DNA of 64,000 bases from Apostichopus japonicus. Its lineage: Eukaryota > Echinodermata > Holothuroidea > Aspidochirotida > Stichopodidae. Below are positions 10,937 to 54,311 of this stretch, piece after piece (within the stretch, counting starts at the first letter, position 1; each line of letters starts with the position of its first letter). Under the pieces are notes generated by a model that searched no databases, had not been told where the DNA came from, and worked only from the letters and a program-made list of their open reading frames with translations. The stretch covers positions 25,954,077 through 26,018,076 of the forward strand of contig NC_092582.1 of the NCBI RefSeq assembly GCF_037975245.1, written 5' to 3'. The position numbers were made by a program, and so were the translations under genes.

Positions 10937-13900
10937 ATGATGGAGACAAATTTCTCAAGCACTGCCTGTTTTCTCCTTTTAATATTTTGCCAGCTTTTCA
11001 GAGCAAGCGGAGGACTCACTACATTGGACAAGGCAGTAGCAAGGTGCAGTACACTTTATGTTTACTACCTTGTGTGTACACAGTGTAGTTTCAGTTAGCC
11101 TAGGCATTAAGTTCGGTTGTTATGTACACGATGATCTATCATAACCTAGCCTAGACTGACTTCACGTGACATACATACGAGCATGTTGATGTAGCCTAGC
11201 TTAGCCAATTAAAGTACTAGTGGTACGACTGCTAGTACTAATTGTAATTTGTGTCAATCAATTTGGCTATATACATTAAAAAAGTAACACAGTTTGTAAA
11301 GTTTCACTCTAGCCTGTCTAGCCTAGTAATAATCTAACATTGAGTATAACTTAGTATAGTTGACCAAGTCTAAGTTTACTAACTAATCTTAACTTTTATT
11401 TAAGGCTGAGGTCACACTAATTAGCGTCAACAGGCCGATTTCACGACAACTAACGACAACTCACGACAACTCAAGACAACAAGTTTAAAATACCATCAAT
11501 ACAATTGATGTTATCAGAGTATATCTGGAAACACCGTTAAAACTGACTGGAACCAATATTTGATATGATGGGGTCATTTTGGAGAGAAAATAACTGTAGC
11601 TTCCTATTTTTCGTGAAATTGGCTCTTGCTGTAGGGTGTCATGGTGAAATCGTGTATTAGTGGTGTCCGAACTTCGCAATGTTCCAAACTTCGCAATACT
11701 GACTATACTACTACTACTAAGTACTAGCCCACCCTTACTCATAAGGCCAAGGCTCATTATTTATTTGAAGATGTTAGGCCTAACTTCTGACCTGTTTACT
11801 TGTCTATGATAGTCCAAAAATTAATCGCCCATGAATAAACCTGGCAAGGAGGGAGGGACAGTTGTCTGCAGGTGAGTGACAGTGGTGCATGACCCCGTGG
11901 CCCTGGGTGACCTACATTGTGAGACACTCCCTGCCCGTTCTTTTCCATGTGGAAATGTTGGTATTCTGTTGGGAGGGTCTGTGGCTGGAATAACAGAAAA
12001 CTGTTTACAAAAGAAATCCAAAAGATTGTTGTTGATGTTATCCTTTGATGTTTACAATGTTAGCATATATACTGTAGCAAAGTTAAACAAGAAACACGTG
12101 TTAAAAAAACACTTCCAGCATGAACCCAGGGCACTCTTGTGCCTAGTTTTAAAACAAAGCATTTGCAGGCATAAGGAAGTCCCTGTAATTTGTGATTGTG
12201 TTGATGATACAGTTCAGTCAAATTCTGTTCCATAAAAGGAATCTATGTGACGGTGTTCACATGTGTCTAGTACAGTACATGTTGGCCTATTATTAACTGT
12301 TTACAGTAGCAGCTAGTATTACCATATTAGGGACAAGGTACTGTACTTCCCTTATCAGTCTAAGCTGTGTTAGGGTACAAAATAATAGCTGATGTTAAAT
12401 AGACATTTGACTCAAATCATTATTTCATAGGATAACCTAGTCTTAGCTGCCAATCTTATTCAGTTTGGAATGACAAAAGTGATAATTATATATACCACAT
12501 AAATTATGGTTGAACTCTGCAAATTTTCCTTGGCCAGTTCCATTACAGCATGGCAAACTGTTACCATTACACATGTCACTGAGTTTGTTACATGCTAACT
12601 AATGAGAGTATTGACGTATTGTCGCTCATCAATTCTCTAAACCAGTCAGTTTTCGGGACTCTGCCAATAACAATTCGATAAATTTGTTAGTTATCAACTA
12701 TACATGTCTTGGATTAAATGTAGGTAAAGAAAACCGAGTACTGTATCTTCAGCCAGTTCACAGTCTAAGTCTTCATCTTTTTGCAGGAAAATAAAAGTGA
12801 CTTTGCAAATGTCCCATACAACAGGTCACCACTTATCAAATATTTTGTTCCAGGATTGTTATATCAATTTAAGAAGCTGTTGATTAGTCACAAGACTTAA
12901 TGTACTGTAGGAAGATTTTATTTTGCAACTGGTCAGTGACTTTTAATGGTAGGGTCAGATCCAAAACCTCTGCCAATGTTATGGACGGAAATTCACAGAG
13001 ATAAAGTCCCATCAAAAATAGTGTGAGAGTTAGTATTTGGTGAGGTATGCATGATTGTTCTAAGTTGGGAGATACCATATAACAGAAAAAAATTAATTGG
13101 GTGGTGCAATATTACAGTAGTCTGTATATGCAAATTAGGTGTTCGTTATTGATGGAATCAGAAAAATGATCAATTCCCACCAACCTTCATAGTGGGTCAA
13201 AACTCTGTGAAGTGTTCAGGATTTCAAAGTATAAGGTACTTTACATTACAGGCCTGGTACCTAAGCTTTATCATACTCCCACTCATAATCTTCTATGTAC
13301 CTCCATTAACCCACTACCCCAAACCAATATTCTGTGTTATGGACGGAATGTACAACGTTATGGATGGAAGGTTTTGTCCTGATTTAAGATCAACTCTTCA
13401 ATTGTGAAGTGTGTGTTATAAGTTAATACTTATGGCCAGTATGTGTAATAATATCAAATAAAATTGAATTTATTATAAGAAGGGAAAGAGCAAGTCCTGA
13501 AATAGGAATTGTTATGGACGGAATGTTATGGACGGAAAGTATTGAATTAGCCTAAAATGAATTGCTATAGCACATGAAAAGGTTCACTCTTGCTGAAGGT
13601 ACTCATCAGGTGGCTTTCAGCACTATAAGCAGAGGCTGACAGGTTGACAGGTTTTGGATCTGACCCAGTACTGACTTTATGTAAAGGTAGTAAGGTACTT
13701 AAAGGTACTGTACTTAAAGGTATGAAATTGTGAAGGGTTCCTTCGTTGGTTTGATGACTATAAACCACATTAAATGGGAATTAAACACTATAGCTGGCTT
13801 CCGATCATACGTTATGGTATCATTACTTGGAAGATGGAAAAACAACACTTTCATCCGCTATCCTTTCGAAATGTTGAACCGTTAGGGACGTTTTTTTCAA

Positions 13901-16900
13901 ATAATAAAATTTCAGCATTTGTTTGGTTCTTTTGCAGAGAACAAGTTCTAGAGATGTTTCTCCATGGTTACAACTCTTATATGGTAAGTTGTTCTTACAG
14001 AATTGTTTACTGTTTCCAATAATCTCTTTAGGTTGAAGAATATCAAGATTTACTTTATAGTTATTTGTTGACCTGATAATTCATTTGGCTATTTTGCATT
14101 GAGCAGCCCAAGTGAATAACATATTCATGTCAGAAGTGCCCTGATGTATATAGTACATCATGTTATCCAGGCTTCAATTGTAGCCAAATTCAAATTTAGA
14201 ATTGTAGATGCAATGTGAATCATTTATTCCAATTTGATGAACAGTACTCATCAGTGTTGTCATCCTCTATTTCAGCTTGTCAATGTACAGATCAACAGGA
14301 AAAACATGGATTTTTGTGTCAATATCTTCATTAATAAAATATATTCATCAAGAGTCTTGAGTGCATAGAATTTATTAGCAAGTCCTCCTGGTGGTTGTTT
14401 GTCAATTCTTAGGTCGGCCCCATTAGCAAGTCCTCCTGGTTGTTGGCACCATACAGTATGTTACAGTACAGATATCAGCTGAAATAATTATGATTTCATT
14501 GTCATGTGTTTGTGTTCTGTTTTTATATCTTAATGTAATCAATATGACAACATGTTAAAGTTTTGTTTGACATTTAATATTTATCTGTTATTTTATCCCT
14601 ATTTTTTAATATTTCTTTTGTGACAGACATATGCATACCCTGCAGATGAATTGATGCCATTAAGTTGCACTGGCAGGGTCAGGGGTCAACAACCAAGCAG
14701 AGGAGATATTGATGACACCCTAGGAAGGTAACCGGGGTCTTTGAGCAGCAGTTATACACAGTGACAGCCTATATATATATATATATATACAACTATATAT
14801 GATCAATTAAACTAGTAACAGAGCTCTTAGAAACATATGCAGCATTAAACATACAGTAGTCTTTAATCAACAGTTATACACAGCCTATACAACTATATAT
14901 CAATTAATCAAGTAACAGAGCTCTTAGAAACATTTGCAGCATTAAACCTAGTCTTTAATCAACAGTCATAAACAGCCTTTACAACTATATATCAATTAAA
15001 CTAGTAACAGAGCTCTTAGAAACATTTGATGCGTTAAACCTAGTCTTTAATCAACAGCTATACACAGCCTATACAACTATATATCAATTAAACTAGTAAC
15101 AGAGCTCTTAGAAACATTTGAAGTGTTAAACCTGGTCATAAATTACATTATATGTAGATGAAGACATGTACATAGTACTTAGCAGTACAACAAGATGTGA
15201 AATTACTAGCAACCTCCGCTACTTGATTTCCAACACCTTTGTAGATATGTGTAGATGTACAGTAGGTGTAATGTGTACATGTAGGTATAATGTGTAAATG
15301 TAGGTAAAATGTGTAGATGTATTGTGGTGTAATGTTTAGATGTAGGAATAATGTGTAGGTGTAATGTGTACATATAGGTGTAATGTGTTCATTAACACTT
15401 AAAGATCGTAATGTAATATTTTGCCTGTTACATTACTCAAATTAATAACATAATTTGATCAATTAAATTTTTTTTTTCAGATTTTCCCTTACCCTTATTG
15501 ATTCCTTGGACACTCTCGCAGTCTTGGGACTCCTAGATGAATTTGAAGATGCAGTACATCGAGTAGTGCATGATGTGACCTTTGACACGGATATAGTAGT
15601 CTCTGTGTTTGAAACTAATATTAGAGTACTTGGGTAAGTAATACAGACTCTGTTTTTCAAAATAATATAAGAGTACTTGGGTAAGTAGTACAGACTGTTC
15701 TTTCAAACTAATATAAGAGTACTTGGGTAAGTAATACAGACTCTGTTCTTTCAAACTAATATAAGAGTACTTGGGTAAGTAATACAGACTCTGTTCTTTC
15801 AAACTAATGTAGTATTAATGTGGATTCCTCATCATCATCATATGATTATACATACTGACACTGTACATACTGTCATGTTTGTTTTGCTTTAATTATATTT
15901 CTTGCTTGCTTGAAACCTGAAGGGTGTTTGGAACATGTGCAAGACATTCCATGTATGACTGTTATCTCATGGTATGTTGTACAGTAATGAAATGTTGATG
16001 GCATTGTTGTAATTTTGTTTGTCACCTAGGGGGTTGCTTGGGGGTCATGTCTCGGCAATTAGTTTGAGAAAAAGCCACAACCGGATGGCTTGGTATAAGG
16101 ATGAACTTCTCTACATGGCTAAAGATCTTGGATACCGTCTTCTACCGGCATTCAACACCACCACAGGGGTTCCCTATCCAAGGGTAAGTCCTCTTAATAT
16201 TATTTAAGGACATGTATATGAAGGACCAATGGTTACTACCTTTGGGTTTAAGCCATCTTATTTGGTTCTCGTAGGTAGCCTAGATTCTGCCAGGTAAGAT
16301 TCTGCACGGCCTATTCAGTGTGTTCATACACTGTGAAACCACCAGACAGTCTTGCCTGCTTGAACTCTATGCCTAATTCATGAGCAAAAGAGTGATAAAC
16401 AAAACCTAAGTTAATAAATTACCCATCACTGCCTTCTGTGTAGTTTGAGGTTTGTTAAATGTCATATGAATTCATCAATTGCACGAAAATCAGAACTGAA
16501 GCTTTCGGAGAAACTTTCAAATTTAGTTGAAACAGTCAGGACATTATGGATGTGCAGCTGTCAGTTTGGAAAAAAACTGTTTGTAGGTGAGAGCTGGGGG
16601 AGAGGGGGGGGGGAGGGTTCACTTTACAAAAACTTCACAACAAACTTAAAAATATTCCTATCCTAGACAAGGTAATGAGGTACACCATTGATAGAGTATG
16701 TAAAGAGTATGTATAGCTCACTATTATAAACAGAAGAATGATACTGAGACCATTCTGTAAAACATCCATCATTAAGTTATGGAACATCTACAAAATATTG
16801 CTTTCACTAGGAAATAAAAACAACTCAAGTAACTGACAAAATTTGGTGTTTAATAATTATTTTGTTTGATTCCAGGTTAATTTACGGCATGGTATTGGTA

Positions 16901-19900
16901 AAGACAGGAAAGAGAAAGACACTTGTACAGCTTGTGCTGGTTCCATGCTCTTAGAGTTCTCTGCCTTAAGCAGATTAACAGGCGACCCTATATTTGAGGT
17001 GAGAGTCTAACTTTATCTTCAATGAAACATTTGCAGGAATTCCATTTGTTTCTATCAATTTCATCACTCAGGCCCTTTCTCAAATGTTTTTGAACTGTTA
17101 TACAAAATAATAAATATGAAATTTTTATTTCATTATTTAATATTAAATTTTGATAGAAAGTTGAGTATGAAATATAATCCAAATTTTACCCAAATATGAT
17201 TTTTTTGGGGGGAGGTATGTAGACATCTTTGCTCTTTCAAGCCTGGTTATAATTTACTTCATTTTATGTATTTGGAATCCTGAAATGCTGCACTGAATGT
17301 ATATAGTATATGTATATAGTAGTAATGTATATAGTTACACACTGTGGGCAATTCATATAGGCTAGGCTGCATACAGTGAAGGTTTGGATATGACACGTTA
17401 TTTAGTGAGGTTAGCTGGACAAATGAGCCTATAGCTTAGCTGCTGGATTTTTAAATGTACGTAAATTTGCAAAATATTTTAGCCATGTACTCAGGTTTGG
17501 ATTAAAAAGCCAAAGTTTCAAACTTTTTTTTTTTAATTTGAAGAATACTGATATTGCTTGCTATCTCAAGGCAGTAGTTATGTTAAATTTGTCCTTGTGG
17601 GTTTCCTCATGGCAGGGATGGCAGGGGTCAGTAGGAGGGGGGAGGGGATGAATAGGTCTGCAGTCAATAGTAGATAAAGAGTTCAAGTTACCATGTATAC
17701 ATAGTGTGGCAAACTTTTGTTAATGTATTTATTGTATGCATCCAGCTAGTTAGTAATGAACTTAACTTATTTTACAAACTGTGTCTGGATACAGCATTCT
17801 GTGTTTACATCATTCTGTGTTTACAGCATTCTATCAATGTTTTTGTTTCACCCTACAGGACAAAGCACAACACGTAATGCATACTCTGTGGGCCAAGAGA
17901 CAGAGGAGCAGTAACCTAGTAGGCACAGTCATAAATATTCATACAGGGGACTGGGTTAGGAGAGGTAAGTGTTGAATTTGTCATAAATATTCATACAGGA
18001 GATTGGGTTAGGAGGGGTAAGTGTTGAATTTGTCATAAATATTCATACAGGAGACTGGGTTAGGAGGGGTAAGTGTTGAATTTGTCATAAATATTCATAT
18101 AGAAGAATGGGTTAGGAGGTGTTTGTGTTAAATTTGTCTCAAATATTCATACAGGAGACTGGGTTAGGAGAAGTAAGTGTTGAATTTGCCATATATATTC
18201 TTACAGGAGATTGGGTTAGGAGAGTTAAGTGTTGAATTTGTCATAAATATTCATACATGAGATTGGGTTAGGAGGGGTAAGTTCTGTGGTAGGCTGCAAT
18301 CATGACTGTATTAAAAACCGTATTATAGTATATATCTTATGTTGATCATAGCACAATGAATATTGTGGAATAGACATGAAAAACTTCTTATTCCGGCTGA
18401 AAAATTTTCTGAATGTGTCGAGGCAGAACTAAGTAAAGATGAACAAGGTTTGTTTGGTATAATTACTATTACTGTGAAATAATTTACAGCAAACAATGTG
18501 TTCAATGCAAAGGCTTACTGGAGTGGATGACATCCATGTTGTCATCTAATAAATATTCAACAGGTAAAGCAACCCTACATGACAAACCCTATTCAAGGGA
18601 GTTGACAGGTAAGGCAGCTTTGATGGAAGGAAGGGGGGGGGGGGGCTTGACAAATGATATGGTGAAATTTATGCTTCATACAGACTTTTAAAGGGTAGAC
18701 TTATTTCAAACATATGTCACTTAAACTTATAATTTAATATTTGTAATGTTTTGTCCTTGGTTTACAGATAGTGGAGTTGGTGCTGGCATCGACTCCTACT
18801 ATGAATATCTTCTTAAAGGTTACATCCTCCTGGGTGACGATGGATACTATGAAAGATTCTCTACGGTATGTCTCATTTTATTGGCAAATATTTGGAAAGC
18901 TACAAAAAAAAAAAAAAAAATATTGATAACCAAACTTTCATATGAAGATTTAATGAGATTCTGGGCTTGATTTGGTTTTATGTTGAAGATATTCATCATT
19001 AAACTCTTGTAACATTTAAATTTTCTTGACTATGCAGGTTTTTACTTCAATGGAAGGAGGAATATTTTAAATTTAAAGACGAGGATATCACAGGTTCTTT
19101 CTGTTGCCATGGCATCTTGCATAATAGCTATATCGTCCTATGATCTGGCTGTTATACTCTTTGATCTTATTCTGTCCAATGATCTGTTTGTTACATCTCA
19201 TTACCTATGTATACCATTCCATTATGTACCATTAACTCAAAAACTGGTTGAACCATTTTATGATCCATTTGTGCCATTCCATTATCAGTGTGTGCCATCA
19301 CATAGTTTTACTTCTCTATGTATATTGTTTATCAAGGTGGTGTTGTATCTTCTTTCTCTTGCAGCATTATGATGCTATAATGACCTACATCAACAAAGGA
19401 CCAAACTTCATTGATGTTCATATGCACAGGCCTCAGTCAAAATCTAGGAACTTTATGGATGCTCTCTTTGCATTTTGGCCTGGACTTCAGGTAAGTCTTC
19501 ATTATCGTGGTAGGATACCATTAATAAGATTCCTAAAGTGTCAGTCATTGGCCTGTGAAATTAATACAGGCAGGGTTACATTTGTGCACTGCACCCTCTA
19601 TGGCCAGGATGTTTCTCATTAGTAATATAAGTGTGTTGCCAATGTCATTATGATCATTCTGATTATGTTGTGTAATATTCCTAAATAATTTGGTAGTCCT
19701 CAACCTTACCTAGAGATGTGTCTACCATTTGAGTGCTTACAATTTATGACGTATGAACCGATTAATGGATCCAGAACAGTTTGTGTCCCACAAATATGAA
19801 AGTAGTTATATTCTGCTGTGATTTTGACAGACTTAGTAATTGATGTGTTTTGTAGTATCTTTGTTATTTCCTTTGAATTGTTCACTAGACTCCGAAAAAG

Positions 19901-22900
19901 TTGATGCAAGGACAGGTTTTATACTTTCTTTATTTCATTTGATCTAAATATTTTGTTCTCTCGCAGGTGCTATTTGGTGACATAGGTCCTGCCATTAAAA
20001 CGCATGAAATGCTCTACCAGGTCACGCAAAGACATAAATTTCTTCCAGAGGTTAGAAAACAGGATTTGTCTTTATTTCTCAGATTCTAAGAAACAACCAA
20101 TTTAGTGTAGCAGTTTTGCATCTTGTTGCCAATTTCCAGCAATTATTCCAAACCTTCTTTCTGTACATAGCAAATTGAATACTGCATTTGATGAAACGAA
20201 GACACACTTCCAGATGGTTTTCACCTAACAAAATTCTAAGAATGAAGACCTATGTGAACACCTTCAATTCTTAAAAACTGTCAACCCTGCTCTCATAAAA
20301 TTTTCATCACATGTAAGAAACAAAGTGGAAATTTTCAACATAATTAATATTTTCATCATCATTTGAAGTGAAATGTGACTAGCTAATGGACTGCATTTTT
20401 CTGTGACTTTAGTATCTACTCAGATTATGAAATTTTTGCTCAAATCTGTTGACCGCTGCCTTAAAAGCTATAGTTAGTTTGGGACAGGCTGTTTGAAGTT
20501 TCTTTAGATCATGGTTGGTCTTTCTGGCCTTCCAAATGGTTTCCCTCATTACCTCATATGCCACTGTACTCTTTAGAAGTTAGAAAGTTGATGCACAATT
20601 TGACAAGTCTCTCCTCAATAAAGGTGTTTGGCAGTTGGTAATAGGGACAACTTTTAGCCATCTTATGGTAAACCTAAAACATTGCCATGTAAACTTATAC
20701 ACATTTAAGGTGTTCCCTGTGACTAGCATTGTTTGGTGTGAGCCATTAACCTTTAAACAGTGGCTATTAATCCTATTTAAAATCATTTTCATTTGACTTG
20801 TCAAGACTATTTATAACCTTGTCCCTGTATTGTTTTTCTCTGTTGTGTGCTCTAAATGTCCCAATAGGACACATCTTGAACACTATCCGATTGAGACCAT
20901 ACAAGAGTTTATTAATCTTATTTGGCAGGCATTCACCCCTGAATACGATGTTTACTGGGGTCAGCATCCCTTGAGGCCAGAATTTGTGGAGAGTACCTAC
21001 TTTCTTTACAAGGTGAGTTCATGTTTAATATCATCCTCCATGTGTTGTATCCTTTACAGTTTACACCTACCTGAGTGGGAGTGGCCATTTTACTGCATGC
21101 ATATTATTCCAGATGGTTAGTACATTGTGACTGACATTGTTAACAGCATTCATGAGCTCTACGTTTCTTATTGTTTCATTAATGTTTCTTTGTTCAACTT
21201 ATTCTTCAGGCCACTAACGACCCTCACTACCTAGAGGTTGGTAGAGATGTTATGGACAGCTTACAGAAGTACGCTAGGGTACCATGCGGGTTTGCTGGAA
21301 TCAAGGATGTCCGAACTGGAAGTCACGAAGACAGGTTGGTACCCTGCTCATATGAATAGCTTACTACTAATTTAATATAATTTAGTGGTAGGGTACATTT
21401 CTGTTTAATAATCTTTAAATATAATTATTAGAGTTCAAAGGAGTAAAAGGTACAGAAAAGGTTAGTAAGGAAGTGAATACTTGCTTTATATCTACAATGT
21501 ATAGCCAATGTTGGTAATTTAATGTAGCCAAGAAATATTATTTCACAGGAAATATTTGAAAGTTACAGTTTTGTAACTTTTGAAAGTTACTCTTTTGACT
21601 GATATCGGAATATTTCATGGTTTCTCGTCGATACATACATTTTCTCTAAATTTGTCACTTTAATCTGTAAATAGCAGAGGAAGGGGAACAATGACCATAT
21701 TTCTAGCAATTCTTCCAGCAGATCTGAAATTGTAAAGATATTAAAGTAAGCAATTATTTATTTCAATTCTGTTTCTTTTTTCACCCCCCCCCCCCCTCAG
21801 GATGGATTCTTTTGTTTTAGCAGAAACCTTCAAGTACCTCTTCCTCCTATTCTCTGAGCCTCAGGACTTAGTGCTTCCAATTGATGACTATCTATTTACT
21901 ACAGAGGCTCACCTCCTACCTCTGACCTTAGCTAATTATAAGGTGAACAGCACCACAACCCAGATGGCTGTAAGTATTCAACCTATTTGCTTTCATTACT
22001 TGTACTTGTTGTATTGGTATTATTACTCTCTCTTGGGTATATTTTGTTGTGAAACACGTTAAAAAGATTAAACGGAGATAAAAAAAATTGTAGCTTGGAT
22101 TATGGTGATGTAAGTGTTTAGCTAAAACGTAAAGTAATTTGAATGAAATGATGACGATCGTAAAAATAGCAAAAGAGAAATAAGCTTCAGTCGAGAAGGT
22201 TCAGAGTTGCCTTAATTTGATTAAATAATTAATCGTTTGTACTAATTATAAGTTCATAGGTGAGTCAATTACATGTTAGGAACCTTTAAAAAATGTTTTA
22301 TGATTTCATAGAAAAGAGAGTTTGGATTTTATAATTTTGCCAGATTGTTTTTGGAAAAGGAAATTAAAGGGAATTGATATTTTGTGAAGGCAAAATATCA
22401 TGCAAGACACAAATGTCAAAGAAAAGTATACCCCCCAACCCACTCCAACTTTCTAATGTTAGATTTAATAATGTTATATAAGCTTTGAAGTTTTTTAAGA
22501 AGGTGCATATACTAACTTGCAAGTTTGTTTATTCCGTTTGCATGTTATATCAAGTCAGATCTTCTGTCTCTTCTTACAGTCCCACTTTAGTCCCTCGAAG
22601 GATTCTCCTCCTACTAATTCTGAACGGTCCTGCCCCAGTCATGAATTTCATTTTCCATCCGGTAAGCTATATTCTGCCGCTGTAAGGAATTCCTTGCCTA
22701 GCTTACAATCTACAAGTTGCCCAACTTCCAACAAAGAAACAGAGATCAGCAATAAGTAAGTTATCTTTGAAATTATTTGCATATTCATATATTTATTGAT
22801 TTGATATTGTTTTGCTGTTCATTCATTTGGTGAAACTTGAATATTCATTATGCAAGAGGTTTGACACATTATTTGAAAAGAATTCTGGTTTAGTGGCAAC

Positions 22901-25900
22901 TTAAGGTGTAAAACACAATTAAGCTAGGGACATGAAAATGGATTGTCCTAGTGTATCACCCAATGTCATATTTACATTTAGCTGTAAAGAATGTGAGGAG
23001 TCACTATATTACTGTGTTGTATGGCACACAGTTAATGTACTACTGTGTTGAAAAATGAATATGAAATGGAGGAAGATATAAGACTAATTAATGGACAAAA
23101 TTAAAGAGCATGAGATTATAATCATCTCATTCCCTTTGCAGGCCGTCCAAACCTCGATTAAAAGCTTCAGAGTTTGTACCTGGCAACAGTGAACACATGC
23201 ATCAGCTGGGTAAGATGGGTATCCAGCTAGTTACTCTAGACGATGGACGGGTACAATTAATGCACAGTGCTTCCAAGGTGAGTCATTACCGACCTATTAT
23301 TATGGACCAGTCCTCAGTAAATAAAGGGTCCAGTTTTGTAACATGGTGGGCGGGTGTTACACTCAGAACCAGTCTTCCATGGGTTTTTTGGAGCTCTATA
23401 GAAACATTCCATTCAGATTCAAACACTGTATGTAGTTATTTTCCCCTGGTCCTATTCAGCACTGTTGGGGACCTATTTTGTGCACTGGGTCCTGTCTAGC
23501 ATTTTGCCTGGTCCTATCACTGTTGGGGACCTATTTTGAGCTCTGGGGTCCTGTCTAGCATTGTATAACTTTCCTGGGGGTGTGAGATCTGCTTGGTCAT
23601 CTCTGTATCTTTTCTTTTTGCTTCTCAAGGCTGAAACACCAGCAGATGCAGAAGAAGGAATGAAGTTTATGCAGGAGATTATTGAAATAACCAAAACACA
23701 GCAAGCTGAGAGTAAGTCCTACTCCTCATTAATATGACTCAGATATCTATGTTATTACAACCATATGGAATGAAGTTTATGCAGGAGATTTTTGAAATAA
23801 CCAAAACACAGCAAGCTGAGAGTAAGTCCTACTCCTCATTAATGTGACTCAGATATCTATGTTATTACAACCATATGGAATTAAGTTTATGCAGGAGATT
23901 ATTGAAATAACCAAAACACAGCAAGCTGAGAGTAAGTCCTACTCCTCATTAGTATGACTCAGATATCTATGTTATTACAACCATATTGCTGCTCACAAAT
24001 AGAGAGATACAAACAATTTAGTCTCATTTAGTCAAATGTTGAGTTCCAGTAATTGAATGGAATGTATTATTATTTTGCACTTTGAAGTTGATAACTGCTG
24101 TCAACGTTCTCACTTAGATTCCTCTGGATTATCAAAATTAACAGGTTGAGTTTTTAGTCACCTTAACTTTCTTTTCAAAGTCGAGAAAAATTATCCGACA
24201 ATTGTGGCAAATTTCAACATCAAATGTAGGTTTGGCTCAAGTGAATCTGCCTGGATTGGGTTATAAAAACAACAGACCCTCTGGAACTCTAACCAACTAT
24301 CTGTAATATTTCTGAATTGCTCCAGGAAGAGAACTATTTACATACTGAACTTTCAGTCTCCATTTGTGAATTTGTATTAATTGTCAGTACTCTATGGTAA
24401 TTTACATTAACAACCACAATTACTGCAGCGGAATATATACATATGGTTATTATTATAATAACTTTAGCAGGTTGTAATCTTAGAGAGAAACCAAAATTAT
24501 ACCTCCTCTCCCTCTCTTAAAAATTTTCAAACAGAATAGTTTGTTATCAGTATCATCAATCAGGAAAAGTATAGATTTTGGAATGGTGGGTTTTTGTTTT
24601 CATAATAAAATGAAGTCTCTTTAAATATATTGAGGTATTTTATTTAATCTGACAGATGTTGACTATCATCCACGAGTAGTTCAAATAATATCACCTGATC
24701 TTCTGAGAAACATTGTCCTGGCCGCCGGCCCGGCACAGTTCGGCGCAGACCTTGACGGCAGTAAAAAACAAGCGGTGAGTATGGTAATACTGATGGCCAT
24801 CAAACATGAACAGTATGACATCAATCAGTAGCTGTATGATAATACTGATGGCCATCAAACCTGAACAGCATGACATCAAGCTGTATGATAATACTGATGG
24901 CCATCAAACCTGAACAGCATGCCATCAATCAGTAGCTGTATGATAATACTGATGGCCATCAAACCTGAACAGCATGACATCAAGCTGTATGATAATACTG
25001 ATGGCCATCAAACCTGAACAGCATGCCATCAATCAGTAGCTGTATGATAATACTGATGGCCATCAAACCTGAACAGCATGACATCAATCAGTAGCTGTAT
25101 GATAATACTGATGGCCATCAAACCTGAACAGCATGACATCAATCAGTAGCTGTATGATTACACTGATGGCCATCAAACCTGGACAGCATGACATCAATCA
25201 ATAGCTGTATGATAATACTGATGGCCATCAAACCTGAACAGCATGACATCAATCAGTAGCTGTATGATAATACTGATGGCCATCAAACCTGAACAGCATG
25301 ACATCAATCAGTAGCTGTATGATTACACTGATGGCCATCAAACCTGGACAGCATGACATCAATCAATAGCTGTATGATAATACTGATGGCCATCAAACCT
25401 GAACAGCATGACATCAATCAGTAGCTGTATGATAATACTGATGGCCATCAAACCTGAACAGCATGACATCAATCAGTAGCTGTATGATAATACTGATGGC
25501 CATCAAACCTGAACAGCATGACATCAATCAGTCACTGTATGATATTTCAAGGATATATGCATCACATTTCAAGGATTTATGTATTACATTTCAAGGATGT
25601 GTGCTTCATATCAAATTTAGTTGTATAATCTTGGAAAATTCATTTGGAAATTATGAGCAACAAAGCAAAAATTCAGAATGAAATTTGGACTGATGTGTTT
25701 ATTTTCACTTGCTCTGCTTTGTTAATCCTGAGACTTGGTTAGACCTTTAGTTGTATGTAGACTTCTGCTATTGTTATATTGCTTTAATAGTTAAACAGTT
25801 CTCCATTAGATAGACATGTTACAAGTTTGATGAGTAAAACCTTGTGGGATTGAATTACATTTTAAGGATTTTGTATATTGATTTAATTATGTTATTGACA

Positions 25901-28900
25901 TTTTTGGCTGATTTGATTACCCTCTGTTTTTGTTGTTGTTGACAGATCCTTGGATCATTAGTACAAGCCAATCCTTTCCATGGTTGCACAGAGCTGGTAA
26001 ACAAAGATCAAGTACAAGGCAGAATAGTGATGGCCCAGCGAGGAAATTGTATGTTCATTGAAAAGGTAACAATTATTACTATCTTCCAGTAAATTGATGA
26101 CTGAAGCCACCCATCAGATGGCCCTGGTGTCATAATTAATATCACCAGACAGATCCCATCAGTCAGGAGTAGATACAAGAATAATTGTCACAATCCTGTT
26201 ATGAAGTAATGGAATTGACCAGATATGACTAAAGATGATAAAAAATGACATCAGATATCCCTGCTTCTTTAAGGATGTGATCTCCTTAACGCTAATCCAT
26301 TAAATTATTCTTAATAAATTCTAACAACTTAACCGACCATGTTTTTTCATCAGCATGTGAACAACAGAACATCTTTGATGTGTTTTAATACCATTTTCCC
26401 TTTGAAAAATTTGTAATGTGAATGGGAACATGTCATTTCAGGACACAAAATTATCACGTTTTTCCCTGTTGAGTTTTATGTTGCATCTTAGGAACTGACC
26501 TAATGGTCTTTTTATTAGACTTAATAGTTCAGTCACTTTAATTGATGAGCCTCAGCTGTTTAATGGGTTAACAATTAAAAATGTTACAGATCTACAAGCT
26601 GGGGGGCTAACACTGTTTTTGAAAGAGTGTCGACAAAAGAGAATTTTTTGCCTGAAGCTGCTCATCTTTTAAGCGATCACGATATTGTTAGACTTGCTCA
26701 CCACTGATGACCTGAGTTTGAATCACTCAGTCTTCAATAATACTTCTGTTCTGTAAATGTTTGTTATTTTTCACAGGAATATGAAAATAAATCTTGACAA
26801 TCTCGCACAGGACCAGAACTGTTGGTTCTGCTACTCATTGGTTCCTTAATTGGAAATCTTTAAGTGTTTTAAGTTTTCCTTGCTGATTATTTTGTGTTAT
26901 TTTCAGGCTAGAATATTGGAGAAGCTCGGTGCTCTGGGAGTGATAATAACGGACAACAATGAATCGTCCAGCAGTGATACCTCTGCAACATTTGCAATGT
27001 CTGGGGACGGCACAGATGATGTCAACATTGGGGTTGTGTTCCTGTTCTACAAGGAAGGAAAGATTCTAGTGGATGCCTTGCAGAACAACGCAAGAGTGGA
27101 TGTCGTTGTCGTAGATAAGGCTAAGTCAGCTGGTAAGATGAAATCTTGAGTAAACTTTGATGTTGAGTACTTAACTAAGAACTGAGTACACTTTGATGTT
27201 GAATAATTTACTAAGAACTGAGTACACTTTGATGTTGAGTACTTTACTTAAAGCTGAGTACACTTTGATGTTGAGTAAGTTGTTAAAACTGTATTTACTT
27301 TGATGTTGAGTACTTTACTGAGAACTGAGTGCACTTTGATGTTGAGTACTTTACTGAGAACTGAGTGCACTTTGATGTTGAGTACTTTACTTAAAACTGA
27401 GTGCACTTTGATGTTGGGTACTTGACTTAAAACTGAGTACACTTTGATGTTGAGTACTTTACTGAGAACTGAGTACACTTTGATGTTGAGTACTTAAATG
27501 AGTACACTTTGACGTTGAGTACTTTACTGAGTACCCTTTGATGTTGAGTACTTTACTTAAAACTGAGTACACTTTGATGTTGAGTACTTTTCTTAAAACT
27601 GAGTGCACTTTGATGTCGGGTACTTTACTTAAAACTGAGTACACTTTGATGTTGAGTACTTTAATGAGTTCACTTTGACGTTGAGTACTTTACTGAGTAC
27701 CCTTTGATGTTGAGTACTTTACTTAAAACTGAGTACACTTTGCTGTTGAGTACTTTACTTAAAACTGAGTACACTTTGCTGTTGAGTACTTTATTTAAAA
27801 CTGAGTACACTTTGATGTTGAGTACTTTACTGAGTACACTTTGATGTTGAGTACTTTACTGAGTACACTTTGATGTTGAGTACTTAACTTAAAACTGAGT
27901 ACACTTTGATGTTGATCACTTTACTTAAAACTCATTACATGATGAGTACAGTATATAACCTCACTTCCCCTACTGTGCTATTTCCTGCCATTTCATACCT
28001 GAAGCATCACACCCTTCCCTCTTACATCTGTATAAGGTACCATTTATAGAGTATTTGGGTGCTAGCTTCAATTCACAACCCTCCCTGTAACATCTATATA
28101 AGTTACCTTTTCTAGAGTATTTGGGTGTTAGTTGCATATGACAACCCTTCCTCTAATTAGCCACAAGATATAATTATATTAAATGTTTTATGGTCTCTAA
28201 GTTTTACATTGTAGATGCTTGTGCAGTCTTTTTGTAACATAAATCAGACCAACATTGCTTCTGAATGTGCTCAAGGACTTCAAGTGAAAAACCAAATCCC
28301 TTTAATATCTCTTGATAACCTAAACATTATGTTTATTGTGTGTTATTCATCACTTATGTATCTATTTCAAGTCATCTGAAGTTGTCATGGACAGTAATAT
28401 GCAAAGCTTGAAAAATTGTGTAATGTTGAATATCAGGTTATTTATAGCCCTCCACTCCCCCACAAACTATGTTCTATTTTACTCATTTCAAACAATAAAG
28501 CATGTCAGTAACACTCCAAACATGTTGATTCATTTTGTCTTTTTCATTTTCTTTCAACGTCAACCCTTACAGATGAGATCAACATCCTCGACATACAGCT
28601 GCAAATGGACGAGCGTCTGGGAATTGCACCAGTGAGGGCCAATGTGGGCACACCAGATGCCAGATATTACCAACAAGATGACGGAGGTGCAGCTATCCCC
28701 TCTGGAGGACCTCAGAGTGAGGGGCTACAGACCACTCTACCTCGTCAACCTACAGACAGCACATCTCAGGGAGGTATGATGCCTGATGAGGTGGAACTGG
28801 CTGGAATAAAACTCAGCGAGGGCAGCATCACTGCAGATGCATCACAGGATGAGGACGCTGCCGTGATAGAAGAGGGCAGCAAACAGACTAGTAAACCAGA

Positions 28901-29573
28901 CAAAGTCTTTGTGAACGTTGACAACGTGCAAGACTTACTGCAGTATGCAGGACTGGAGGCCGATTTATATTTAGTTAACAACCACCAAAATAAACTGGAA
29001 GAAGGGAGAGAGATCTATTCCAAGGTCAGTCCACAGGAACTGCAATTAAGGATGGAGAAAATACTCTTCAAATATATGGCCTCGGATAAGGGGAGAACTT
29101 ACCAACAGGACCAGCAGAGGTCCAAGGATGGGGGCTTAGAGAGCACCTCAGTGGGGGGTATAGTAGCCCCCGAGGACATGGATTTAGTCCTATTACAAAT
29201 ACAAGAAGAATTTATGAAACTAGAAAGTATACAAAATGCATTTCAAAATCTGAATCCAAACCAAGAGGCATCCATTCCAGATTATAGCGGAGCGGTCAAC
29301 GAGGTGGACGGAGTTCCCAACAGTGCAATCAAAGGTGATGAACACGCTGGCAGTCAGTCAAGTATAGAAGATAGAACAACTAGGCAAACAGTAGGTCTTT
29401 CATCCAGGGGAGAGGCGGGGGGTGACCCCGCACCCCTCAGCAGAGTCGAATTATTACAGAAACGGAGGGATGAGATCAGAGAAGAATTGAACAGACAACA
29501 CAAAGAGAATATAGCTTCCCAGGAGAACAGGAGGACTGACAAAACAGTAGAGAATAAAAAACAGGAGCTTTAA
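10937..29573 (+). CDS. EDEM3: EDEM3: ER degradation-enhancing alpha-mannosidase-like protein 3
   Basis: ER-lumen mannosidase family protein that trims mannose from misfolded glycoproteins and routes them to ER-associated degradation. The 20 coding exons are 10937-11043, 13938-13983, 14627-14727, 15481-15633, 16030-16183, 16876-16998, 17859-17964, 18768-18865, 19365-19490, 19967-20050, 20929-21012, 21210-21334, 21801-21969, 22580-22755, 23142-23277, 23630-23711, 24656-24774, 25946-26065, 26907-27132 and 28573-29573. All junctions are GT..AG, the phases agree, and the total is 1,111 codons plus stop. Residues 1-25 are a signal peptide with an [10 protein letters not shown] core. GH47 runs about 35-490: [31 protein letters not shown] (Glu129, equivalent to human Glu147), [13 protein letters not shown] (Asp272), LRPEFVEST (Glu384/Glu387) and [10 protein letters not shown] (calcium-binding Thr470). 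A PA domain spans about 640-775 ([26 protein letters not shown]). Residues 780-1111 form an acidic, Gln-rich tail in one exon ending KQEL, an H/KDEL-type retrieval signal. The protein is about 180 residues longer than human EDEM3. The start was chosen because it gives a signal peptide; the upstream ATG at 10932 stops after two codons. Confidence 0.95.
12952..13666. repeat. Perfect 18-bp inverted repeat bounding 0.7 kb in EDEM3 intron 1
   Basis: GGGTCAGATCCAAAACCT (12952-12969) is the exact reverse complement of 13649-13666. The enclosed DNA repeatedly carries GTTATGGACGGAA or close variants (near 12979, 13337, 13358, 13510 and 13523). It could be a MITE or a decayed element. No TSD was recognised. 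Confidence 0.45.
14741..15135 (+). repeat. About 92-bp minisatellite at the start of EDEM3 intron 3
   Basis: Four copies of a 92-97 bp unit marked by GAGCTCTTAGAAACAT (near 14821, 14918, 15010 and 15102), CAACTATATATCAATTAA and TCTTTAATCAACAG. The first copy includes a short AT run. The array begins within about 15 bp of the exon 3 donor at 14728. Confidence 0.9.
15241..15389 (+). repeat. Degenerate about 20-bp minisatellite in EDEM3 intron 3
   Basis: Imperfect repetition of TGTAGGTGTAATGTGTACA and variants. Confidence 0.8.
15611..15808 (+). repeat. 47-bp tandem repeat containing the exon 4 splice donor
   Basis: The end of exon 4 plus its donor is duplicated in tandem. Four GAGTACTTGG|GTAAGTA donors stand at 15634 (the authentic one), 15681, 15727 and 15775, each in a 46-48 bp unit with ATACAGACTCTG..TTTCAAACTAAT. 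In the exon frame the first intronic codon after Gly136 is TAA, so use of a downstream donor would introduce a stop. Confidence 0.9.
17928..18287 (+). repeat. 52-bp tandem repeat containing the end of exon 7 and its donor
   Basis: About seven units of AAATATTCATACAGGAGAYTGGGTTAGGAGGGGTAAGTGTTGAATTTGTCAT type. The first unit is coding ([11 protein letters not shown]) and ends at the real donor, 17965. Donor-like GTAAGT copies recur at 18017, 18069, 18173 and 18277; weaker ones (GTTTGT, GTTAAG) fall near 18120 and 18224. Each unit also carries an acceptor-like TTCATACAG. Confidence 0.9.
23657..23986 (+). repeat. 110-bp tandem triplication including exon 16 coding end and donor
   Basis: Three 110-bp copies start at 23657, 23767 and 23877. 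Each contains the coding sequence of [18 protein letters not shown] followed by GTAAGTCCTACTCC. Only the first copy is joined to the exon 16 acceptor. The second has one Ile-to-Phe change and the third one Met-to-Ile change, so the copies are recent. The donors are at 23712, 23822 and 23932. Confidence 0.9.
24783..25540 (+). repeat. 55-bp minisatellite at the start of EDEM3 intron 17
   Basis: About 13-14 copies of a 55-bp unit (some shortened to 49 bp) with TAATACTGATGGCCATCAAA, CTGAACAGCATGACATCAAT and CAGTAGCTGTATGA. It begins within about 10 bp of the exon 17 donor at 24775. Higher-order repetition is visible around the TGATTACACTGATGG variants. Confidence 0.95.
27150..27945 (+). repeat. 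36-bp minisatellite at the start of EDEM3 intron 19
   Basis: About 20 copies of a unit combining ACTTTGATGTTGAGTACTTT and ACTGAGAACTGAGTAC, with indel variants. It starts about 17 bp after the exon 19 donor at 27133. Because 36 is a multiple of 3, long spurious frames arise on the minus strand. Confidence 0.95.
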
Positions 29574-37425: not shown

Positions 37426-39331
37426 CCGAGCCATGTTCTGTTGAGATTATAAAATCTAAATAATACTCAACAAAGTTTTAGTGAAATTGAAGGGGTTCAG
37501 AAGGGGGGGGGGGGCGTACCGCCTTCACACACCTTGCATATCCAGAATGGTTGTAACGTATCTTATTGGTATAGTTGTACTTTGTTTGTTTCAGAATAGT
37601 TGTATTGTATCTTCTTGGTAAAGCAGTAATTTATGTTTCCGTATAGTTGTATTGCACGTTTGAAGGTAGTTTCAAGAGTTCGTAATTAATTACTATTTTA
37701 AGACAACAAATCATGAAACGTATCCTACCCTCATAATAGTAAACAATATGGTTGCTGATGGTACTCATTGTTAGCATTTAATATCAACGAGAAGGTCAGA
37801 CTTCGAAGTTTGACAGATGATAAATTTATTGCAAAGGAAGTAAAATGGAGTCATAGCAAAGGTCGGCAGAAAGGTTCATGTTTCATCAAACTTGATATGA
37901 TTTGAAGAAGACAATGGGACACGGAAGTTGAAAATACACGTTATACCTACTATATGAATACGTGCTAAAGTAGAGATCAGGGTAATGAATATGCATGAGT
38001 TATCACAATAAACATGTGACCTACTATATGACTACTTGCTAAAGTAGAGATCACGGTAATAAATATGCATGAGATATCACAAGAAACATGTAACCTACTA
38101 TATGACTTCGTTATAAATATGCATGAGATATCAAAAGAAAGTCGTGAATATTCACCTTTACATGCCTTTGTATACACCAACCAATTATCCACATCCCCGC
38201 TAGATATGTCAATAGGAAATGGTGGTTCCCTGTGAAGGATATATGTGTAGGTATTGTGTTCATTTGTTCATCGAAATGCACATTCTGGAGATGATTTCAT
38301 TATCTTTACAATTAACCTGTGAAAATTAACGGCTTTATATACACAGTTTGGCCAATTTTTATTTATATTGTAGTGTTATACCCTGCAGCACTCGTATAGT
38401 CAGTACGAGCAGTATGAATATCATGTTTCTATCAGATCAAGGTTAGCAACTGTTTTTAGCAGTGCTTTGAGAGCAGGATATTGGAGTACAGTTTAGAGAG
38501 GAATAAGCATTAGGAAATGGTCCCAACTGGCTGCTTTAGGTCTCTCATTAATGCATATGCAATTAGTTCTCACAAGACGGAGTAAGAAGTAAACATGACT
38601 GGTAGAGCGCCCTCTATTTGAGATAGTTTTATAATGCGAATATGCCTATACCTGTTGCACCGTAGAACTTTCAGTCAATATGCACAGTTCCGAACCTTTA
38701 TCTGATAGTAAAAATATCTTCATATTGCTCGCAATGTTAGTGTAAGCTGAGCGTGACATGGAAGTACTTTAATTAACAATTGTTACAACTGGCGAATGAT
38801 TCTGCTGAATATGCATGTTTTGCACCGAGAATAAGTTGTAGTACATGATTTACGTAAAGCGACTTTTGAATAATTGTGACTATTTACGGTAATTGTTGCA
38901 TGGGTTTACGATTAGTTATAATGTATCATTCACGTTTATTTCATGGTAGGTTTCTCAAAACGATGGTCAGGGTTGACCTTTGAGAGGGCACTCGTCTTAA
39001 TTTTTTTTTAAAGAAATTGTAAGACAAGTTCAACATCCCATACAAGCCCTCTCAACATCAGTTAAATCAATTGATAACAATGATAAATGGATATTACAAG
39101 TTTCGTTGAGACCCTTTTTGTAACGTGATATGAACCTCCTTCATGTTAAATCTAACCATAAACCTATTCCCAAGTCCAAAGACTTCATTTCAATTCTTAT
39201 TAAAACTCCACTCTAGACCAGAAAGTCTCCATTTCATAAACATCAACCGCCGGAACAGTCTGCAGATCGTTAACTCTCATCTGAACAATTTTTGTCTCTG
39301 GCAAGTTCTTCGCCGAATAATATTACTTACG
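37426..39331. other. Intergenic, no gene recognised; 74-bp tandem repeat inside
   Basis: No exon is supported. At 37947-38145 a 74-bp unit (CCTACTATATGA, GCTAAAGTAGAGATCA, AATATGCATGAG) occurs 2.7 times. The rest is AT-rich. Confidence 0.55.
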
Positions 39332-39801
39332 ATGGGTACCTTTAGACTCCTTCTCTTTGCAGTATTGATAAGTAACGCTGTGTGTTTCCTTGACGATTAT
39401 CGCGAAGAGGATTTCGATTTGCGAGATGATAACTTCGTCAGAAGACAAACCTGGCCTGAGTTTCAAACCAAACACGTCGTAGTTGCGAGTTCTACTATAT
39501 AAGGAATGCCAACCATTGGATCGATTTGGCCATGAACCGTCTCGGCAGCTCATATGGCTCCAGTCGTCCCAGGCAGACCTTCATCCGGGTGAAGAACTTG
39601 AATGAAATATCCAATGCTTACCGAGGGCACCTGCAGGTTTGTCCATTCAACAGAAATTACTACAAGAGCAACGCCAAGTTTGACGTTATCTATATGAGTT
39701 GGGGAGGTTCGAGCTACTCTGTCAGTTACAAAGGACCAAGATACATCTGTACTTCCGTGGACAACCTCCGAAGACCCGATCACTTCGCGGGCTTCGTTTA
39801 G
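39332..39801 (+). pseudogene. Small secreted-protein gene with frame disruption, unknown family
   Basis: ATG 39332 opens MGTFRLLLFAVLISNAVC, a good signal peptide, followed by an acidic segment (DDYREEDFDLRDD) and a stop at 39502. An overlapping frame, open from 39460 to the TAG at 39801, reads CEFYYIRNANHWIDLAMNRL and then a Tyr/Ser-rich region with cysteines in QVCPF and YICTS. Together they look like one secreted protein of about 140-150 residues broken by a one-base shift near 39460-39500. Alternatively a short 89-bp intron (39372-39460, weak acceptor) would join signal peptide to mature part in phase. AATAAA at 39996 supports a + strand transcript ending near 40.0 kb. I do not recognise the family. 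It may be a pseudogene, an assembly indel or a real spliced gene. Confidence 0.4.
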
Positions 39802-49610: not shown

Positions 49611-51875
49611 CCCTTACCGAAATCCCAGATCTGGGCCAGATATAAGAATCCAGATCTGGTCCAGATCTGGAATTTCAATCTGGGCCAGATCTGTTCCAGA
49701 TCTGGAATTTATATCTGGCCAGATAAAAAATTGGGCAGATATAACTTGATATAAAATCAAGTTTTATATGGCCCATATAAAATTTGATCTGGTTAAATAT
49801 TATTGCATCCATATCTGGGCCAGATAAAACTTTATCTGGTTGATATAAAGAAAATCCAGATAAACTTTTATATGGCCCATATAAAATTTGATCTGGTTAA
49901 ATGTTATTGCATCCATATCTGGGCCAGATAAAACTTTATCTGGTTGATATAAAGAAAATCCAGATAAACTTGTATATGGCCCATATAAAATTTTATATGG
50001 TTCAAGTTTATGGCTTCCATATCTGGGCCAGATGAAACTTTATCTGGTTGATATAAAGAAAATCCAGGTACACTTTTATATGACCGATATAAAAAAATAT
50101 ATATATCTGGCTAAAATGTCAATCAAATAGGAAATAACTGGCCAAAACTGGACTAGCATTGATATTAACTTTCCAGCGTGATCAGTTATCTCTGTTCTGG
50201 TACAGAGACCCATACAGAGAGCAAGACACACACAAGCTAGCTGTGTTCTAGAACTCAACTGGATTGGAACAGAGTGGAAATATGTAATGTGCATGCACAT
50301 TACACATTTTTACTATACCTTACCAAAACATTTGCAAACTGATATTGAATACATGTACATTCAAATTTTTCGCCCAGGTAAATCATATTACTTACTTAAA
50401 AAAACTGGCATCGCGCAGTACGTACCACTAGTACACTTAAAAATAATAATTGAAGGTTGAGTTCTTTATTCTTCTGTGGTCCTGTAGATGTTGATACTAA
50501 ATTGCATTGTGCTATTCTTTTATTTAATATATTTGCTTTAATAAATAAGTTCCAGGAGGGCGATATATGTTCCATTCAGTATCGAAGTTCAGTCCCAAAA
50601 TATATTCCTTGTTGCCGTCCATTCCAAAAACTTCTTCCTTACTTCTGGCTGTTCAGTTCACTATAGAATCCTTTGCCAATGTCCTGACATCAATAGGTTA
50701 TTATTTATGAATCTCCATCACCTTTTCTTAATGTACCAATCCTTTCTGTTTAACTTCCTTCTGCTCTTTACTCCTACCATGTGGACACTAGTGTACACAT
50801 AGCTCCCTTTCCTATCTCACTCCTACAAAGTATCAAAACACATATGTCCATTGTTCAAAACGGCCTTCACACTTAATCAACTTCTGAGTCATCCTAGGAT
50901 GCTGTTTCAAGCTAAGACCCTGTGGTTGCCTAGCAACCCAGATAGAGATAGTTATTCCCCCTTTGACTTAGTGTACACTGTAAGTGATTTACTATTGAAA
51001 TATATATGCAAAGTGCAGTACCACAATATAGTGCAATGTTAATCTCTATGAAAATACACTATGTAAGAGCATACAGTCTTAAAGTTTTATCTGTCAATAT
51101 AAAGTCAGGTATAACTGGATAAACATGATGTATATCAAGTTATACCTGACTTTATATTGACAGATAAAACTTTATCTGCATATCTGGATTGACTCAATAT
51201 CCAGTTATATCTGGCTTTATATGGCCAGATAAAACTTTATCTGCATATCTGGATTGACTCTACATCCAGTCATATCTGGCTTTATATGGCCAGATAAAAC
51301 TTTATCTGCATATCTGGATTGACTCTACATCCAGTTATATCTGGCTTTATATGGCCAGATAAAACTTTATCTGCATATCTGGATTGACTCTATATGCAGT
51401 TATATCTGGCTTTATATGGCCAGATAAAACTTGATCTGCATATCTGGATTGACTCTATGTGCTGTTATATCTGGCTATATATGGCCAGATAAAACTTGAT
51501 CTGCATATCTGGATTGGCTCTTTATCCAGTTATATCTGGCTTTATATGGCCAGATAAAACTTTGTCTGCATATCTGGATTGACTCTATATCCAGTTACAT
51601 ATGGCTTTATATGGCCAGATAAAACTTTATCTGCATATCTGGATTGGCTCTATATCCAGTTATATCTGGCTTTATATGGCCAGATAAATCTTGATCTGCA
51701 TATCTGGATTGGCTCTTTATCCAGTTATATCTGGCTTTATATGGCCAGATAAAAGTTTATCTGCATATCTGGATTGACTCTATATCCAGTTATATCTGGC
51801 TTTATATGGCCAGATAAAACTTGATCTGGCCAGATTAAACCAGATGTAAAGCCAGATCTGGCATTTCGGTAAGGG
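49611..51875. mobile_element. Foldback-like element of CCAGATAAA..TTTATCTGG repeats, 2.27 kb
   Basis: The inverted ends CCCTTACCGAAATCCCAGAT (49611) and ATCTGGCATTTCGGTAAGGG (to 51875) match over about 24 bp with one mismatch. Behind the left end is an array of three 104-bp units (about 49720-50105). Behind the right end are about eleven 65-bp units (about 51100-51830). Both unit types hold the palindrome CAGATAAA-AC-TTTATCTG and ATATGGCC/GGCCATAT variants. The middle (about 50110-51085) is unique and has no transposase. A clear TSD was not found; only TT is common to both flanks. The layout resembles foldback elements, with repeat arrays inside inverted ends. Confidence 0.7.
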
Positions 51876-54272: not shown

Positions 54273-54311
54273 GTAAGTATGTTTATCATAGAAAACAGTT
54301 TGATACATTAG

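Follow-up and report, generated by a model that had tools for sequence, protein, structure and literature searches.

Why do so many introns of a single gene begin with a tandem repeat, and what place do these repeats have with respect to the 5' splice site? These questions are raised by a stretch of the sea cucumber genome (Apostichopus japonicus; NCBI RefSeq assembly GCF_037975245.1, contig NC_092582.1, positions 25,954,077 to 26,018,076 of the forward strand). The window, i.e., the whole stretch of DNA that was analyzed, has a length of 64,000 nucleotides and contains an EDEM3-like gene (Table 1). All 19 introns of this gene have GT-AG ends, and the 1111 codons of the spliced frame are read without a break. 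A Pfam search with residues 1-831 of the product revealed a Glyco_hydro_47 domain (E 1.7e-120) and a PA domain (E 7e-15), and the product matched 16 solved sequences, among them EDEM1. Searches against Rfam and NCBIfam gave no matches. We take the gene to be EDEM3 because of the PA domain.

The preliminary description of this locus had reported that introns 3, 4, 7, 16, 17 and 19 each open with a tandem array that contains the splice donor or starts 0-20 bp from it. Tandem Repeats Finder (TRF) confirmed minisatellites at or near the donor in all six, i.e., in 6 of the 19 introns. In introns 4, 7 and 16 the array contains the donor, starting at positions -33, -37 and -55 relative to it, and in introns 17 and 19 it starts within 20 bp (+4 and +14). 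For intron 3 the statement did not hold, as the TRF array starts only at +58, unless a degenerate partial unit is counted that extends to about +10 and has a self-match score of 13.5, compared with 13.0 for the 99.9% quantile of shuffled queries. The unit lengths reported before were also found by TRF (Table 1); for intron 4 TRF gave 48 bp, and the earlier value of 47 bp corresponds to the distance between copies 1 and 2. No sequence relationship exists between the units of the different introns, and thus the six donor-side arrays look as if they arose independently, as had been proposed. It had further been noted that the acceptor ends have no comparable arrays, and none of the eight EDEM3 arrays with a TRF score of 100 or more lies at the acceptor side; the nearest to an acceptor-side array is a small repeat in front of the intron 6 acceptor.

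The main point, which had not been brought out before, is that the units of introns 4, 7 and 16 span the exon-intron junction. They consist of the end of the coding exon together with the donor, and are present in four, seven and three copies, respectively. The intron 4 unit comprises the last 33-36 bp of exon 4 and 11-14 bp of the intron, and GTAAGTA is present in all four copies, with the donor predicted to be used at 15634 and further donor copies at 15681, 15727 and 15775. The intronic copies share differences that are absent from the exon copy, indicating that they were amplified among themselves. In intron 7 the unit comprises the last 37 bp of exon 7 and 15 bp of the intron; the first donor is at 17965, a further copy follows every 52 bp, and GTAAGT has been kept in five of the seven copies. 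The intron 16 unit is made up of the last 55 bp of exon 16 and 55 bp of the intron, with donors at 23712 (predicted to be used), 23822 and 23932, GTAAGT in all three copies, and an identity of 97% between the tandem copies according to TRF.

Minisatellite-like tandem duplications of exon-intron boundaries have been named mirages in amphioxus, where they have been described for the genes Adh3 and TnC, the globin genes BflGb6 and BflGb9, and PGBD5 (PMC3087553, PMC3902484). By their sequence, introns 4, 7 and 16 carry mirages: in addition to the boundary-spanning unit, many but not all copies have the AG/GT splice signal, and the turnover typical of minisatellites is seen in the homogenized intronic copies of intron 4 and in the copy number of intron 16, which is 3 in the gene and 14 in a decayed paralog (see below). 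In introns 3, 17 and 19 the array is wholly intronic and does not include the donor, and these three were not classed as mirages.

Next, the question arises which of the donor copies is used. The splice scores do not single out the first copy in introns 4 and 16, where first and later copies have 8.5 bits and 7.0 bits each, and in intron 7 the later copies reach up to 11.2 bits, compared with 12.1 bits at the first donor. However, in-frame stops result whenever the exon is extended to one of the 11 later copies (a single one of these copies has lost the GT). Furthermore, when splicing is assumed at the first donor of introns 4 and 7, the product aligns with the best solved GH47 match without gaps at the exon 4/5 and 7/8 joins; this alignment does not reach the intron 16 join. 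Based on frame and homology, we infer that the first donor copy is used in introns 4, 7 and 16. The downstream donors are decoys that have no demonstrated function, and the mRNA would acquire in-frame stops if any of them were used.

A partial, decayed copy of EDEM3 lies about 300 kb from the gene on the minus strand (C22:25.65 Mb), and 30 kb of this locus were analyzed (C22:25640001-25670000). The identity to EDEM3 is 95-100% in exons 8-18 and 20. Exon 12 is interrupted by an in-frame stop, and no counterparts of exons 1-6 and 19 were detected in these 30 kb. The homology starts in the last unit of the intron 7 mirage, which suggests that this minisatellite may have served as the breakpoint of the duplication. 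The arrays themselves differ between the two loci. The intron 16 mirage has 14 copies in the paralog, 13 of them with GTAAGT, and the intron 17 array has 13 copies compared with 14 in the gene. The effect was not confined to donors: a 31-bp stretch in the middle of intron 14, of which the gene has just over one copy, has 16 copies in the paralog, and a 62-bp stretch in the middle of intron 15 has 12 copies compared with two. These mid-intron seeds grew as strongly as the intron 16 mirage, and thus array growth is not bound to donors, contrary to what the preliminary description implied. The paralog also bears on the possibility that the arrays are artefacts of the assembly. Copies that are 97% identical, as in intron 16, could in principle be misassembled. 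However, the copies differ at fixed places, and the arrays are found again in the paralog in different numbers of copies. In addition, the matching HiFi/Hi-C assembly is based on 64-fold HiFi reads (PMC10344927), whose mean length of 14.7 kb exceeds the length of all six arrays. An artefact is therefore extremely improbable.

The explanation that we regard as probable is that donor-side duplications survive because splicing tolerates them. A short tandem duplication would arise by chance around an exon-intron junction. The first junction copy would stay in use, since exon definition relies on the acceptor of the exon itself and on the closest strong donor, and the further copies would fall into the intron and leave the mRNA unchanged. 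The array would then grow or shrink by unequal exchange or slippage; the change in copy number itself is seen in intron 16. Duplications that cross an acceptor or lie within an exon, in contrast, would alter the mRNA, and fewer of them would survive. The mirages of introns 4, 7 and 16 would be the direct products of this process, and in introns 3, 17 and 19 an array of the same kind would have started just inside the intron.

One might also think that the rows of donor copies are kept because they are useful, e.g., by binding additional U1 snRNP and thereby protecting or strengthening the first splice or blocking premature polyadenylation. The presence of GTAAGT in most copies of the three mirages would fit to this. 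However, two copies of intron 7 have lost it, the junction is missing altogether from the arrays in introns 3, 17 and 19, and in a mirage of another gene, CCT_C17, the motif is confined to the used donor (see below). In addition, the pseudogene, for which no function is expected, has kept the motif in nearly all copies of intron 16, showing that its retention indicates recency and not use. A function of the donor rows is thus very improbable.

The claim that the arrays are not placed at random was supported, with an outcome that differed according to the expectation applied. When arrays were placed freely over the whole gene, five of the eight lay within 20 bp of a donor compared with 3.1 expected (P 0.13), and six of the eight within 60 bp compared with 3.4 expected (P 0.048). 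The first of these values would fit to plain coincidence, i.e., to a genome so dense in minisatellites that a gene could be picked in which several happen to lie at donors. The coverage points in the same direction, as arrays make up 20% of the EDEM3 introns and 10% of other introns, and so do random intronic positions, 18% of which fall into repeats in EDEM3 (donors: 6/19) and 13% in other genes (donors: 4/44, i.e., fewer). However, free placement over the whole gene is too lax, because arrays may not overrun exons; with placement restricted to introns, five arrays were found compared with 0.64 expected (P 6e-5). Random positions, in turn, over-weight expanded arrays, and therefore an expectation based on density was preferred, calculated as array density times (unit length + 60 bp) per donor. 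On this basis six donor-linked arrays in EDEM3 compare with 1.13-1.22 expected (P 0.0011-0.0016), while the number of acceptor-linked arrays is 0 or 1, depending on the score cut-off. As an excess, although a weaker one, was also observed in genes that had not been chosen for the pattern (P 0.041-0.063), coincidence is an improbable explanation.

EDEM3 had been chosen for its pattern, and for that reason a separate set of 44 junctions was built from other genes of the same genome (13 GH47, 20 CCT and 11 myosin), modelled from profile or homology hits. One part of the models was restricted to adjacent profile hits separated by a query gap of -18 to +6, and for the other part pairs were chosen whose query ranges adjoin. 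Models with a poor fit were dropped before counting (GH47_C22a 9793, CCT_C5 1313, MYO_C10 339 and MYO_C19c 238), and the single GH47_C20 junction based on a hidden Markov model was replaced by homology-based ones. The array counts cover introns of 3 kb or less, which excluded three longer introns of GH47_C21; in these three, no self-matches were found at donor or acceptor. A GH47 gene at C21:21.01-21.11 Mb extends over about 90 kb, and minisatellites of 75 bp x 54, 66 bp x 57 and 82 bp x 71 lie between its matches.

The remaining 41 introns contain 9-11 arrays. Four of these are donor-linked, compared with 1.28-1.48 expected, and one is acceptor-linked. Three of the four are mirages (3/44 junctions), two of them in CCT genes and one in a further GH47 gene, and thus the phenomenon, contrary to what had been supposed, is not a peculiarity of EDEM3. 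The CCT_C21 mirage has a spacing of 121 bp and eight copies of the junction word, with weak splice scores of 5.0 and 1.3 bits. The GH47_C20 mirage is a simple case, in which a 40-bp unit is present twice without differences; it has 1 bp of microhomology and starts 7 bp before the donor. The CCT_C17 mirage has a 31-bp unit with about 9 bp of exon. In the CCT_C17 array, from coding-strand position 275 onwards, GTAAGT is present at the used donor only and GTAGTA occurs 42 times, which gives the impression that the decoys were first weakened and spread afterwards.

When the new genes and EDEM3 were pooled, 6 of 60 donors were inside an array compared with 0 of 60 acceptors (Fisher P 0.027), and self-matches were found at 10 of 63 donors and at none of 63 acceptors (P 0.0013). 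By density, ten donor-linked arrays compare with 2.4-2.7 expected (P 2e-4 to 5e-4), an excess of about fourfold, which is about threefold for the new genes alone. An earlier array finder based on self-BLAST had given a lower figure for 24 shorter introns of the new genes, namely two donor-linked arrays where 1.09 were expected (P 0.30), and an array that included the donor in 1 of 24 cases; it was replaced by TRF because it missed arrays with close periods, e.g., the 40-bp pair of GH47_C20. The association between donors and arrays is thus probably more than chance.

An association of this kind could also be produced by a mutational hotspot, in which events at exon-intron borders that are linked to transcription or chromatin (R-loops, stalling or breaks) generate duplications near donors. 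The preliminary description had suggested a process of this type, with R-loops as one candidate. It would account for the donor-linked excess over the density expectation, which is firm in EDEM3 and less firm in the other genes, and for the spread of the array starts from -62 to +18 around the donor, with the exception of intron 3. However, the composition of the arrays does not fit to R-loops. The six arrays have a GC content of 30-40%, and a G-rich non-template strand was absent from five of them: the G-over-C skew is marked only in intron 7 (0.61, with 11 GGG runs) and is between -0.26 and +0.16 in the other five. The genome-wide counts of tandem donor patterns were not in favour of donor seeding either. 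Three patterns were compared with their reversed controls; one of them was more frequent than its control (998 vs. 444 matches), while the other two were less frequent (620 vs. 941 and 1019 vs. 1361), so that there was no excess in sum (2637 vs. 2746). These counts are matches and not arrays, are swayed by long arrays, and include an overlap between the first and the third pattern. For the pattern AGGTAAGT x2 on contigs C1 and C2, the donor version occupied 14 distinct places among the matches listed and the control 23, although this pattern is a weak proxy that, by its letters, would miss all six mirages found. Together with the growth of the two mid-intron arrays in the decayed paralog, these results make a hotspot at donors an unlikely explanation.

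Several observations weigh against tolerance by splicing as the sole explanation. Three of the six EDEM3 arrays do not contain the donor, and the use of the first donor is a prediction from frame and homology. In the new genes alone, the difference in self-matches between donors (4/44) and acceptors (0/44) has a P of 0.12, and the absence of acceptors from arrays (0/60 compared with 1.16 expected, P 0.31) is by itself within chance. Acceptors are not barred in principle, as the globin gene BflGb6 of amphioxus carries an acceptor-side mirage. Last, tolerance predicts that donors are no richer in arrays than the interior of introns, yet they exceed the expectation about three- to fourfold, and a part of the bias is left unexplained. 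Taken together, tolerance explains the survival of donor-side arrays, but it does not fully explain the excess at donors over interior introns.

A more far-reaching idea is that deuterostomes as distant from each other as amphioxus and the sea cucumber have a mutational process in common by which tandem duplications that span 5' splice sites are favoured. Several percent of introns would then carry a mirage (3/44 in the new genes), introns would grow from the donor end, and the donor copies would form a buffer of spare 5' splice sites. We regard this as doubtful. Irrespective of the cause, the frequency of mirages, 6 of 63 introns and 3 of 44 without EDEM3, makes them countable genome-wide. 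They are natural tests of how the spliceosome chooses among equal donors and of how introns lengthen, and the difference between 3 and 14 copies in gene and pseudogene offers a way to approach the rate at which arrays grow.

The features of the gene are listed in Table 1, which includes a two-copy duplication in intron 15 that is not linked to a donor. Three further elements of the window are located downstream of the gene. The region 49611-51875 (2.3 kb) resembles a non-autonomous DNA transposon, judged by 24-bp terminal inverted repeats (49611-49634 and 51852-51875; 96% complementary) around two minisatellites with units of 104 bp and 65 bp. A fragment of a NACHT-domain (NLR-like) gene is present at 52755-54275 on the plus strand (Pfam NACHT, E 1.8e-9). 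A possible gene for a secreted protein lies at 39329-39801, in which the start, resembling a signal peptide, and the remaining part are in different frames; a pseudogene, an intron or a frameshift may account for this. The open reading frame 39469-39801, for which a resemblance to secreted RNase-like proteins had been considered, had no match in Pfam or PDB, and such a relationship is therefore not claimed.

Table 1. Positions of the EDEM3-like gene and of the tandem repeats in its introns (numbering of the window)
Feature	Position	Strand	Unit and copies	Remarks
EDEM3-like gene	10937..29573	+		GH47 catalytic domain and PA domain; 20 coding exons, 1111 aa, unbroken spliced frame
Intron 3 donor and array	14728..15137	+	92 bp x 3.7	donor 14728; TRF array 14786-15137; partial unit from about +10
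Intron 4 mirage	15598..15811	+	48 bp (TRF)	copies 46-48 bp apart
Small array, intron 6	17790..17832	+	16 bp x 2.7	TRF; 26 bp before the acceptor
Intron 7 mirage	17928..18282	+	52 bp	7 junction copies
Intron 15 mid-intron duplication	23445..23562	+	62 bp, two copies	at +167; absent from the TRF list
Intron 16 mirage	23657..23986	+	110 bp x 3.0	TRF
Intron 17 donor and array	24775..25544	+	55 bp x 14	donor 24775; array from +4; TRF
Intron 19 donor and array	27133..27939	+	36 bp x 23	donor 27133; array from +14; TRF

Tandem repeats at or near splice junctions have also been described in other organisms. In potato, the RdRp gene is an example of intron gain according to the Rogers model, in which an AGGT segment is duplicated in tandem (PMC4974935). 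As in EDEM3, the duplication carries splice signals, but in potato it crosses the acceptor boundary and made a new intron, while the EDEM3 copies lengthen the start of an existing intron. In green algae, tandem repeats are enriched near intron-exon junctions (PMC3887541), and the non-random placement at junctions is thus shared. In contrast to EDEM3, the units examined in the algae had a length of 1-50 bp and both intron ends are concerned, and junction-spanning units do not appear in the passages seen.

The closest likeness is to the mirages of amphioxus, which are described as occurring at the donor side as well as at the acceptor side and reportedly leave splicing undisturbed; for the globins, RT-PCR suggests normal splicing, and the mechanism is called unclear (PMC3087553, PMC3902484). 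The boundary-spanning unit, the reiterated splice signals, the units of tens to about 160 bp, the turnover of copies and the preserved coding frame are common to both. The differences are that the cases found in the sea cucumber are exclusively donor-side, that EDEM3 has three mirages and three more donor-side arrays in one gene, and that the host is an echinoderm and not a cephalochordate, although the host group is not part of the definition. No report of mirages outside amphioxus was found in the literature searched, which lacked many subscription journals. Mirages are a known kind of element, and their occurrence in an echinoderm adds a new animal group.

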